From: Acidobacteriota bacterium
GTDB lineage: Bacteria; Acidobacteriota; Terriglobia; Terriglobales; Acidobacteriaceae
Direction of reading: 5' to 3'
DNA: 33,332 nucleotides
Assembly: GCA_019236695.1 (NCBI GenBank)
Contig: JAFAIN010000125.1
Coordinates: 1-33,332 of the forward strand
The position numbers were made by a program, and so were the translations under genes. The notes below the pieces were generated by a model. It ran no database searches. It was not told the origin of the DNA and was given only the letters and a program-made list of their open reading frames with translations. This document shows positions 15,744 through 20,621 of the stretch, piece by piece (positions within the stretch are counted from its first letter, which is position 1; each line of letters starts with the position of its first letter).

Positions 15744-17036
15744 CTACGCGCGAAGAGTCGGCACGGCCTTCTCGACTGCCTCGCAGAAGGTGTCGATTTC
15801 TTCCGTCGAGGTGTAAACGTTCGGGCTCACGCGGATTCCGGTGAACTGCGGCTTTCCTTTCATCGCGGGCCCAGTAATGGGTACTACCACGATGTTGTAC
15901 TTCTCCAGCAACGTGCTGGCCAGCTTTCCTGGATCCACTCCGTCAAATTGAATGGTGGCAAATGCCCCGGAAAGGTTCGGGTCGAGTCCTACCAGGAGCG
16001 TTGCTCCTTTCACCTGGGTCAGCCGTGCAGCCCACCTTTGTTTCAGGTATCGCATGCGAGCAAATTTTCGCTCCGCCCCCATCTGGTCATGGAACGCCAG
16101 CGCCTGCTGAATGCCATTGTGCATGGCGGCCGGATGGGTGCCGATCTCTTCGAATTTCCGAATGTTGTCATCCATGGCCGGGGGCGCCGCCATTAAAGCC
16201 CAGTGGCGGCGAACCCGGTCGCGCCGCACGTACAACATGCCAGTCCCAATCGGAGCGGACAGCCACTTGTGAAGGCTGGCGCCGTAGAAATCACAGTCGA
16301 GCCCCTGGCCCGGATCGGCGGAACTCGCGAACCGAAACGGCACGTGCGCAAACGCATGCGCGCCGTCCACAATGCTCGTAATCCCATGCCGGCGGGCAAG
16401 GGCACAGACCTCGGCCACCGGAAGAATCTGTCCAGTCATAAACACCACTTGCGAAACATGGATCACGCGCGTTCGCGGTGTAATGGCACGCTCGTAGAGC
16501 GCAACGATGTCGCCGGGGTCCCTCACCGGCACCTCGAAATCCACCTGGCGCAGCACAATGCCTTCCCGGCGTTCGCGCTGCTGCCAGGTGGTGATCATGC
16601 GGGGATAATCCTGGCTGGTGGTCACCACCTCATCGCCCGGTTTGAGGTCGAGCCCGAACTGCGCAATCTGCAATGACTCGCTGGCGTTGCGGGTAATCGC
16701 AATCGTCTCCGGATCAGCGCTCCAAAGGGCGGCAAGACGCTTGCGCGTGTCTTCGATTTTTGGTTCCAGTTCGCCCCACATGCGCTGCGCCGGCAGCAGG
16801 TTCGAATACCGGATGGCATCAATCTCCGCCTCGAGCACGAGCGAAGGAGAAGGCGCCACGCCGCCATTGTTCAGATTAATGAGTTTTGGATCGCGGAGAT
16901 ATGCGCGGCGGATTTCGCGCCAGAAGTCCTCATCGCTTGCCACCTGCTGCGCAGGCGTGCCCGCATGCGCTCGGTTCAGTGCGGCGAGAATGGCCAGCGC
17001 TTGCGAAGCCCACAGGAATTCCCGCCGGTTCGGCAT
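15744..17036 (-). CDS. Class V aminotransferase (isopenicillin N epimerase-like) with Tat signal peptide
   Basis: Tat-like MPNRREFLWASQALAILAALNRAHA; INLNNGGVAPSP, TRNASESLQIAQFGLDLKPGDEVVTTSQDYP, SIVDGAHAFAHVPF, FYGASLHKWLSAPIGTGMLYVRR (PLP lysine). Confidence 0.88.
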   Translation of the reverse strand: MPNRREFLWASQALAILAALNRAHAGTPAQQVASDEDFWREIRRAYLRDPKLINLNNGGVAPSPSLVLEAEIDAIRYSNLLPAQRMWGELEPKIEDTRKRLAALWSADPETIAITRNASESLQIAQFGLDLKPGDEVVTTSQDYPRMITTWQQRERREGIVLRQVDFEVPVRDPGDIVALYERAITPRTRVIHVSQVVFMTGQILPVAEVCALARRHGITSIVDGAHAFAHVPFRFASSADPGQGLDCDFYGASLHKWLSAPIGTGMLYVRRDRVRRHWALMAAPPAMDDNIRKFEEIGTHPAAMHNGIQQALAFHDQMGAERKFARMRYLKQRWAARLTQVKGATLLVGLDPNLSGAFATIQFDGVDPGKLASTLLEKYNIVVVPITGPAMKGKPQFTGIRVSPNVYTSTEEIDTFCEAVEKAVPTLRA

Positions 17037-17099
17037 TCCGACCTCCTGCACAACGGCCAAATCTTACACCGGCGCGCATGGCGGGCAAAGCTCAATGGG

Positions 17100-19841
17100 C
17101 TATTTCGTGCGCCCGCCTTCGGTCTTCAGCTTGTCGGTTGCGGCTGCCTGCGCCGCCGCCAGCCTCGCGGTGAGCACGCGGAAAGGCGAGCACGACACAT
17201 AATTGAACCCCTGCTGGTAGCAGAACTCAACCGACGAAGGCTCGCCGCCGTGTTCGCCGCATATCCCGATTTTGATGTCGTGCCGCGTGGCGCGGCCCTT
17301 TTGCACGGCGATCTTCATGAGCTGGCCTACGCCGTCGCGGTCCAGAACCGCGAACGGATCCTGTTTGAAAATGCCTTCGCTCAGGTAGATCGGCAGGAAC
17401 TTGTTGATATCGTCGCGCGAGAAGCCGAACGTGGTTTGCGTGAGGTCGTTGGTGCCGAAACTGAAGAATTCGGCTTCCTTCGCGATCTCATCTGCCACCA
17501 GCGCCGCCCGGGGCAGTTCGATCATGGTGCCGACCAGGTATTCGACGCGCGACTCCTTCTCGGAGAACACTTCTTCCGCTGCGCGGCGCACGATTGCCGC
17601 CTGGTTGGCCATTTCCTTGAGAGACGAAGTCAGCGGGATCATGATCTCGGGAATCACTTTCACTCCCTCTGCCTTCACCTTGACCGCCGCTTCGAAGATG
17701 GCGCGTGCCTGCATCTCGGTGATTTCCGGATACGTGATCCCCAGTCGGCAGCCGCGATGCCCCAGCATGGGGTTGATTTCGTGAAGATCGTTCACGCGGC
17801 GCAGCAGTGCGCGGAGTTCACGCAGCTTGGGCGATTTCGGCTTGGTAGCCTCCAGCACCGCAATCTGCACCATCAGCTCTTCGCGGCTGGGCAGAAACTC
17901 GTGCAGTGGCGGATCGAGCGTCCGGATAGTTACCGGAAAGCCGTCCATGGCGCGGAATACGCCGACAAAATCCGACCGCTGGAACGGCAGCAGCTTCTTC
18001 AGGGCCGCGCGTCGCTCCTTTTCATCCCGGGCGAGAATCATGGCGCGCATATGCGCAATGCGGTCTTCGGCGAAGAACATGTGCTCGGTGCGGCACAGCC
18101 CAATGCCCTCCGCCCCGAAAGCGCGCGCCTGAATGGCGTCGCGCGGAATGTCGGCGTTGGCGCGGACCTGCATGGTGCGGAACGGTTCTGCCCAGGCCAT
18201 GAATTTCAGCAGCTCCGGATCGTCGGGCTTGGCCGCTACGGTGCCCAGCCGGCCCTTGATTACGCGGCCGGTTGTGCCATCGAGCGAAATCCAGTCGCCT
18301 TCATGGAACGTCTGGCCCTTCACCGACATTTCCTGCGCCTTCTCATCCACATGGATTTCGCCCGCGCCGGCCACGCAGCATTTGCCCATGCCGCGCGTCA
18401 CCACCGCGGCGTGGCTGGTCATTCCGCCGCGCGAGGTCAGAATTCCCACCGCCACCTCCATGCCGTGTATGTCCTCGGGCGTGGTTTCGGCACGAACCAG
18501 GATCACCGGGTTCTTGCCGCCGCCGGCGCGCTCCACTGCATCGTCGGCCGTAAACACGATCTGCCCGACAGCGGCGCCCGGAGAAGCCGGCAGCCCGGTG
18601 GTCAGGATCTCAATGTCGCCTTTCTCATCGAGCTTCGGAACCAGGAAGTCGTAAAGCTGATTGGGATCGACCCGGAAGATGGCGTCTTCTTTGGTGATCA
18701 GGCCTTCCTCAACCATGTGGATCGCCACTCGGACCGCGGCGCGCCCGGTGCGTTTCCCGTTCCGCGTCTGCAGCATGTACAGCTTGCCTTCCTGAATGGT
18801 GAATTCGAAATCCTGCATGTCGCGGTAGTGCTGCTCCAGCCGTGTCGTAATCTCACGCAACTGGCGGTAGGCCTCGGGATTCACGCGCTCCAGTTCGGAA
18901 ATATGCACCGGCGTGCGAATGCCGGCCACGACATCTTCACCCTGCGCGTTCATCAGGAATTCGCCGTAAAACTCGCGATCGCCAGTGGAAGGATTGCGGG
19001 TAAAGCCAACCCCCGTGCCGCTGGTCTCGCCCAGGTTGCCGAACACCATGGCCTGCACGTTCACGGCGGTTCCGAGCTCGTCGGAAATGTTGTTCATGCG
19101 CCGGTAATGCCGGGCGCGGTCGTTGTCCCAGGAGCGGAATACGGCGTTGCGCGCCTCCACCAGTTGCTCGCGAGGATCCTGCGGGAAATCGCGCCGGGTG
19201 TGCCGTTTCACAACCTTCTTGTAATCGGAAATGACCTCCTTCAGCGCTTTGGCGTCGAGATCGGTATCGAGCTTTGCCTTCTTCTTGTGCTTGATGCCTT
19301 CGAAAACTTCGTCGAAGGCGGCCTTCGGGATCTCGAGCACCACGTTGCCGAACATCTGGATCAGCCTGCGATAGCTGTCATAGGCAAACCGCGGGTTGTT
19401 GCTGCGTGCGGCAAGCGCTTGCACGCTTTGGTCGTTCAGGCCGAGATTCAGGATCGTATCCATCATGCCCGGCATGGAGAATTTCGCGCCCGAACGGACG
19501 CTGACCAGCAGCGGGTTCGATCCGGAGCCGAGCTTCTGCCCCTGCAGGTCTTCCAGGCGAGCGAGCGACTCGTTCATCTGGCGATCCACTTCCGGCGATA
19601 CCTTTTGCGCGCGCATCCACTCGCGGCAAGCCTCCGTCTGGATGGTGAACCCGGGGGGAACAGGCAGCCCGGCATTGGTCATCTCGGCGAGGCCTGCGCC
19701 CTTGCCGCCAAGCACGTCTTTCATCGTGCCATTGCCTTCGGCATGGCCTCCCCCGAAGAAATAGACGTACTTGGCCGCGCCGGCTCTGTGGCCATCACCG
19801 GAATGCGTGGACTCGACTTGCGGAAGGGTTTGGGTCGCCAT
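17100..19841 (-). CDS. ppdK: Pyruvate, phosphate dikinase
   Basis: GTMKDVLGGKGAGLAEMTNAGLPVPPGFTI, SVRSGAKFSMPGMMDTILNLGLND, GILTSRGGMTSHAAVVTRGMGKCCVAG, GIGLCRTEHMFF, IGICGEHGGEPSSVEFC. ATG at 19841 preferred to 20171. Confidence 0.96.
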   Translation of the reverse strand: MATQTLPQVESTHSGDGHRAGAAKYVYFFGGGHAEGNGTMKDVLGGKGAGLAEMTNAGLPVPPGFTIQTEACREWMRAQKVSPEVDRQMNESLARLEDLQGQKLGSGSNPLLVSVRSGAKFSMPGMMDTILNLGLNDQSVQALAARSNNPRFAYDSYRRLIQMFGNVVLEIPKAAFDEVFEGIKHKKKAKLDTDLDAKALKEVISDYKKVVKRHTRRDFPQDPREQLVEARNAVFRSWDNDRARHYRRMNNISDELGTAVNVQAMVFGNLGETSGTGVGFTRNPSTGDREFYGEFLMNAQGEDVVAGIRTPVHISELERVNPEAYRQLREITTRLEQHYRDMQDFEFTIQEGKLYMLQTRNGKRTGRAAVRVAIHMVEEGLITKEDAIFRVDPNQLYDFLVPKLDEKGDIEILTTGLPASPGAAVGQIVFTADDAVERAGGGKNPVILVRAETTPEDIHGMEVAVGILTSRGGMTSHAAVVTRGMGKCCVAGAGEIHVDEKAQEMSVKGQTFHEGDWISLDGTTGRVIKGRLGTVAAKPDDPELLKFMAWAEPFRTMQVRANADIPRDAIQARAFGAEGIGLCRTEHMFFAEDRIAHMRAMILARDEKERRAALKKLLPFQRSDFVGVFRAMDGFPVTIRTLDPPLHEFLPSREELMVQIAVLEATKPKSPKLRELRALLRRVNDLHEINPMLGHRGCRLGITYPEITEMQARAIFEAAVKVKAEGVKVIPEIMIPLTSSLKEMANQAAIVRRAAEEVFSEKESRVEYLVGTMIELPRAALVADEIAKEAEFFSFGTNDLTQTTFGFSRDDINKFLPIYLSEGIFKQDPFAVLDRDGVGQLMKIAVQKGRATRHDIKIGICGEHGGEPSSVEFCYQQGFNYVSCSPFRVLTARLAAAQAAATDKLKTEGGRTK

Positions 19842-19932
19842 GAAGCGTCTCCTGATGATGTCGTGAATCATCCAGTCTATCGCGGATGGGAGGGAAGTGT
19901 TGGTGAGCCGCGTCACGTGCCGCGCGCAAGGC

Positions 19933-20376
19933 TCACGCCGAATCGCGAATCGGGTCCAGCACATCAAGAAACGGAAACTGGTGAAAATCAGTGTCGCGCG
20001 TGCATATGCGCCGAATTCCGTGCTCCCGCATGAGGACGGCGGTATGGGCGTCATGAAAGCGGTTTCCCGACAGTTGCGGCAGCTCATGCACCACGTGAGC
20101 CGCAATTTCGGCATGCCGCTCGGTGGGAGTAAGGATGCCGAGGCCCGGTGAGCGCAGCAGCGACTCGACAAAACTCCAGGCGCCGGCCGCGGTCCAGGGC
20201 CGGCGCAGGACCTGGCGATGCGTGCTCACCCGAAGGAATTCATACAGGATCGGCCACGTCGTGTACCAGGCATCTACTCGTTGCCGCTGGCGTTCCAACC
20301 ATGCCCGGCATGCGGCATGGAACTCGGAATCCTGATTGGCAGCATAGATCAGCACACTGGCGTCAACCACCAACAC
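19933..20376 (-). CDS. vapC: VapC-type PIN-domain toxin (GTG start)
   Basis: MLVVDASVLIYAANQDSEFH, YEFLRVSTH, HDAHTAVLMREHGIRRICTRDTDFHQFP: conserved PIN acidic residues. Confidence 0.88.
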   Translation of the reverse strand: MLVVDASVLIYAANQDSEFHAACRAWLERQRQRVDAWYTTWPILYEFLRVSTHRQVLRRPWTAAGAWSFVESLLRSPGLGILTPTERHAEIAAHVVHELPQLSGNRFHDAHTAVLMREHGIRRICTRDTDFHQFPFLDVLDPIRDSA

Positions 20377-20602
20377 TACTTGCTCTCCATGGCGTCATAG
20401 AGAGCATCGCGGTCCGCGACATCCACCAGCATCTGCCCCCCCGGAATCCTGGCAGCGGGGGAAGGGCGGCAGGCTTTTTCGATGACCGGAACATCATCCG
20501 CAGTGCGGCTTCGACCAACTCCGACATGGTGCGCCGCTGTCGCGCCGCCTCCCGCTTCAACTGGGCTGCAACCCCATCGTCGATCACGAACGTAGTCTTC
20601 AT
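20376..20602 (-). pseudogene. vapB: VapB-type ribbon-helix-helix antitoxin, frameshifted at a G7 tract (apparent ORF 20363..20614)
   Basis: Zero frame MKTTFVIDDGVAAQLKREAARQRRTMSELVEAALRMMFRSSKKPAALPPLPGFRGG then nonsense; +1 nt at 20436..20442 gives QMLVDVADRDALYDAMESK* ending in TAG that overlaps vapC GTG by 1 nt. Confidence 0.85.
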
Positions 20603-20621
20603 ACGGAATACCACATCATAG

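Follow-up and report, generated by a model that had tools for sequence, protein, structure and literature searches.

A vapB antitoxin gene that leaves its family frame in a run of seven Gs beside an intact-looking vapC: a possible recent contraction in an Acidobacteriota VapBC module

In the genome of an Acidobacteriota bacterium the antitoxin gene of a vapBC pair departs from the frame of its family within a run of seven Gs, while the conserved C-terminal tail of the antitoxin lies in the neighbouring frame, directly before an intact-looking toxin gene. The best explanation, which we advance tentatively on the strength of the DNA and its relatives, is that an ordinary VapBC module with weak expression has recently lost a single base by contraction of the tract. 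The window – the whole 33,332-nt stretch analyzed – is an entire contig (C155) of a 363-contig draft genome of 3.64 Mb that is ∼88% complete.

A vapB frame broken in a G7 tract

The locus has the layout of type II VapBC modules: a ribbon-helix-helix (RHH) vapB is found upstream of a PIN-domain vapC, the two genes being adjacent, overlapping and on the same strand. The features that define the break are:

20363..20602, minus strand: vapB antitoxin gene, read in the zero frame from the ATG start of the family; profile match to PF01402 (RHH_1) above cut-off
19933..20376, minus strand: vapC toxin gene, PIN domain, intact; matches to PF01850 and TIGR00028 (Mtu_PIN_fam)
20436..20442, minus strand: G7 tract (C7 on the plus strand), where the reading frame departs from the family frame
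20376..20435, minus strand: conserved C-terminal tail of VapB, encoded in the neighbouring frame and terminated by a TAG with a one-base overlap with the vapC start

The zero-frame open reading frame of vapB extends from 20614 to 20363 (minus strand) and has GTG as its first codon; the start used by the family is the ATG at 20602. A profile built from intact relatives aligns with the window VapB only at positions 1–57 of 75: the N-terminal ribbon-helix-helix (residues 1–57) is retained and the C-terminal part is out of frame. Beyond the tract the zero frame terminates in ...GFRGGRCWWMSRTAMLSMTPWRASSVGG and a stop, a sequence without resemblance to the VapB family. The neighbouring frame, on the other hand, reads ...GGQMLVDVADRDALYDAMESK and ends in a TAG (20378..20376) whose last base is also the first of the vapC GTG (20376). 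This tail aligns without gaps to the family consensus GGxLVDVADRxALYxAMEER and keeps every invariant C-terminal residue (D, D, R, A, L, Y and M). The original prediction, made from the letters alone, had placed a break in vapB at the G7 tract and a natural VapB tail, with its TAG overlapping the vapC GTG by one base, in the next frame; both parts are borne out. Runs of seven or more Gs or Cs number just 25 in a 1.01-Mb sample of this genome, and since the break falls exactly inside one of these rare runs a misread gene boundary is unlikely.

The state of vapC had been named as a check on the prediction, and its frame looks intact. The protein scores 103.9 bits against TIGR00028 (cut-off 73.6), and alignment with relatives shows all four acidic residues in place: the D of VVDAS, the E of YEF, the D of HDAH and the D of TRDTDF. 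One departure from the usual VapC is that residues 5–7 read D-A-S where nearly all relatives have D-T-N (L226 has D-A-D and L139 D-A-K). The nearest solved VapC is VapC43 of M. tuberculosis (7vwo). Like known type II modules of the TIGR00028 kind, the locus has an RHH antitoxin gene directly before, and overlapping, a PIN toxin gene; unlike them, its frame is broken in the toxin-binding C-terminus of the antitoxin. The locus is derived from a VapBC but, with the tail out of frame, does not qualify as a working one.

Relatives cross the site in a single frame

VapB relatives were drawn from near relatives, one public MAG, the phylum, the class and the order, and their DNA was read at the site. 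In all instances in which VapC is intact, the site is crossed in one frame that ends in the tail carried out of frame in the window. Close relatives that naturally end in the zero-frame sequence would, by its own account, have refuted the prediction; those read end in the sequence of the other frame. At the site they carry mixed Gly and Ser codons, with a longest G run of G6 (L135); a G7 tract is found in none of the relatives with an intact VapC, and is thus not conserved at this position, and the zero-frame extension is absent from every relative read.

Three deductions follow. Because relatives use a single frame and have runs of G6 at most, the ancestral state is in frame. Given their mixed Gly and Ser codons and the absence of a tract of seven, the run arose locally from Gly-Gly codons, and it is the zero-frame end that is the derived state. 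Finally, retention of all invariant tail residues out of frame indicates that the break is young, or absent altogether.

The search for relatives also delimits the comparison. No VapB match was found in the one same-genus genome and no relative of the window VapC in IMG/VR; a scan of genome contigs for relatives returned a single one (the public MAG). The coaX/ppdK neighbourhood of the locus differs in relatives, leaving no matching empty site for comparison.

These data bear on phase variation, according to which reversible changes in the length of the homopolymer toggle the antitoxin on and off. Seven Gs can suffice for this: the glpK gene of M. tuberculosis has a GGGGGGG tract that varies with high frequency among clinical isolates (PMC6667613), and frameshift indels that are reversible are also on record (PMC8339072). 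The likeness to glpK is that a one-base indel in a seven-base G tract would inactivate the gene. The differences are that the change here is a contraction relative to the family, rather than an expansion, seen in one sequence rather than in a population, and that full-length MutS and MutL are encoded in the genome, unlike in mycobacteria. Given also that relatives do not share the tract, and that an intact toxin would make it costly to switch off its antitoxin, we regard phase variation as quite improbable.

Assembly quality around homopolymers

An undercall in the consensus or assembly would leave vapB intact in the organism and the contig one base short in the homopolymer. It would account for both the intact VapC and the undecayed tail, and the state of the genome also speaks for it: a draft in 363 contigs, ∼88% complete and resembling a metagenome bin. 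Nevertheless we judge an undercall to be somewhat unlikely. The number and size of the contigs suggest short reads, and short reads cope well with runs of seven to eight bases. Moreover, no homopolymer errors were seen elsewhere in a 1.01 Mb sample of the same assembly, where frame switches were no more frequent at homopolymers than at random places. The first codon-usage scan for frame switches was too strict for most G7 tracts, which were then read singly: at least 10 G7/C7 tracts in the genome lie inside intact long genes. Splits across frames affected 0/17 genes in an alignment with 400 kb of a complete genome from the same family, and all 22 PIN loci in the genome (22/22) are free of stops. 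Together these results argue against an assembly that is generally prone to homopolymer error, though they would be compatible with one isolated undercall. Were the base nonetheless present in the organism, the locus would illustrate how homopolymer gaps create false orphan toxins.

The 22 PIN-domain loci of the 3.6 Mb draft include six VapC-like loci that score above the TIGR00028 cut-off, that is, five besides that of the window.

Decay of related modules and the state of the promoter

Other broken VapBs were found among the relatives, and in every case VapC is also broken or missing. In L213 there are stops in both genes; in L217 the VapB frame is also broken in the linker, though at a different repeat (CTTC) that has apparently contracted, and VapC is absent; in L143/L176 and L144/L175 a broken VapB likewise goes with a VapC that is broken or missing. 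Among the loci read, that of the window alone pairs a broken VapB with an intact VapC, a singularity that favors an undercall. In a live module one would not expect the antitoxin to be broken while the toxin stays intact, and the pairing therefore points to an undercall, a rescue or operon silence; it also weighs against a real contraction, since selection should act against cells that lose the antitoxin but keep an active toxin. Further copies of the same break were sought among partial VapB hits in other genomes, most of which proved to belong to other subfamilies or to modules that have lost the toxin.

Toxin-first decay is common in the family: L138, L203, L205, L212 and L224 have an intact VapB and a broken or lost VapC.

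A silent operon would be consistent with the sequence upstream of vapB. In relatives the vapB promoter is near-leaderless, comprising a TTGACA-like element, ∼17 nt, TATGnT, 7 nt and then the ATG. The corresponding position in the window is:

20610..20615, minus strand: −10 position of the vapB promoter (near-leaderless in the family), eroded to TGTGGT (family TATGnT)

The −35 element of the window matches TTGACA at 3/6 positions and a consensus scan detected no promoter at its vapB. Among relatives, TATGnT occupies the −10 position in 28/30 modules with an intact VapC versus 2/10 with a broken VapC (Fisher p 2e-5, on a rough automatic split that is uncorrected for kinship and that assigns L139 to the broken group solely for its first motif, DAK). 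By its −10 and −35 hexamers the window looks like a decaying module; with the −10 eroded as in decaying relatives, the operon may be quiet and loss of the antitoxin tolerable. Two observations count against this part of the contraction reading: L208 has the same TGTGGT hexamer, yet both of its genes are intact, and an alternative TTGCCA-19-TATGAT pair is present 5 nt upstream in the window.

In L003, L004, L124, L129 and others, TTGACA-17-TATGGT is located 7 nt before the ATG and overlaps a CATA...TATG palindrome; the vapBC operons of these relatives look near-leaderless and autoregulated.

A slippery heptamer and a stable RNA fold

A rescue could take the form of −1 slippage, ribosomal or transcriptional, at the sequence G_GGG_GGC, giving some full-length antitoxin either as a programmed event or by leakiness. 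Two features are relevant:

20435..20441, minus strand: slippery heptamer G_GGG_GGC, formed by the G7 tract and the next C
20381..20406, minus strand: 11-bp RNA hairpin with loop ACGC, starting 28 nt after the heptamer, its 3′ arm holding GGAG

The heptamer sits in the −1 slip register of the zero frame (C GG|G GGG GGC) and fits the pattern X_XXY_YYZ, as had been predicted. The register stands, but it follows automatically from the loss of one G in this codon phase. The heptamer is missing from all relatives, and 25 other in-frame G_GGG_GGC sites lie in intact genes.

For the 93 nt of RNA from the tract onwards, the predicted folding energy is −40.8 kcal/mol (z −3.1, −3.6, −3.1 and −3.7 in separate runs), a strength reached by 0.2–0.4% of 500 random coding windows and by none of 38 other in-frame G_GGG_GG(A/C/T) sites, for which z is −1.9 or higher. 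The mean z among relatives is −0.24, although two relatives that lack the heptamer have stable folds as well (z −2.8 and −2.0). This stable fold is the one observation that a plain indel leaves unexplained, and slippage would in addition account for viability and for the conserved tail.

The heptamer in the right register and the stable RNA downstream thus resemble programmed −1 frameshifting. Against the resemblance, the signal is not conserved, the Gly-Gly codons explain the tract and the spacing of the strong hairpin appears far too long. Frameshift stimulators are usually found ∼5–9 nt from the slippery site; here only a long-range outer stem starts close to the heptamer. The hairpin has, furthermore, an alternative job: its 3′ arm contains the Shine-Dalgarno-like GGAG of vapC (20385..20388, minus strand, 8 nt before the GTG). 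From its distance to the heptamer and its position over this element, a role in vapC translation appears at least as likely as the stimulation of slippage. We consider slippage improbable. Its strongest form, in which VapB is made only by −1 slippage at G7, aided by RNA that masks the vapC ribosome-binding site as well, with the slippage rate setting the ratio of antitoxin to toxin, is highly improbable. Slippage, if true, would yield a product containing a peptide that spans ...FRGGQMLVDVADR from G7 DNA, and would mean that the toxin–antitoxin ratio is set translationally.

A conserved vapC-coupling hairpin as a feature of the family was also considered and is not established: conservation of the hairpin is weak, with 65% of cells paired versus 61% in a slid control. 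A hint comes from codon choice, the pairing Leu being preferentially CTC or CTT (p 0.001). Pairing between the Shine-Dalgarno-like sequence of vapC and the vapB codons for ALY occurs in the window and some relatives, and translational coupling is possible.

The assembly error, mutation, phase variation and slippage listed in the original prediction hold up as a list of options. The suggestion that slippage or phase variation sets antitoxin dose stochastically is not supported: no relative has the tract or the heptamer, G7 is short, mismatch-repair genes are present, and the strong hairpin lies 28 nt from the heptamer and over the vapC ribosome-binding site. What survives of it is the unusually stable downstream fold, which keeps slippage as a minority option.

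A model for the loss and its tolerance

A recent single-base contraction would have proceeded as follows. vapB would have lost one base in the G-rich stretch that encodes the Gly-Gly codons of the linker, sparing the DNA-binding half of VapB and removing the segment expected to cap the VapC active site; the result would be an isolated loss-of-function allele rather than a signal for recoding. The loss is probably tolerated through decay of the promoter, with little VapC made, perhaps aided by some binding that the truncated VapB retains or by traces of slippage. We infer that the base is truly missing in the cell, that operon expression is low, as the upstream hexamers suggest, and that the truncated VapB would be unable to neutralise VapC.

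The structure of VapBC11 gives substance to the possibility of residual binding. In that complex the VapB C-terminus wraps VapC from a lateral site to the active site, and a lateral-site peptide alone inhibits somewhat (PMC6265470). The truncated VapB of the window keeps the DNA-binding part together with the lateral segment, and partial binding of VapC is therefore possible. Rescue by a non-cognate VapB is unlikely, judging by VapB specificity (PMC7354431). If the allele is real, the locus would offer a snapshot of toxin–antitoxin decay in an unusual order: antitoxin before toxin, possibly as a consequence of earlier promoter decay.

An antisense open frame in the window

The window also contains a 1022-aa open frame (16965..20033, plus strand) that is antisense to a pyruvate phosphate dikinase-like gene and is probably an effect of codon usage.
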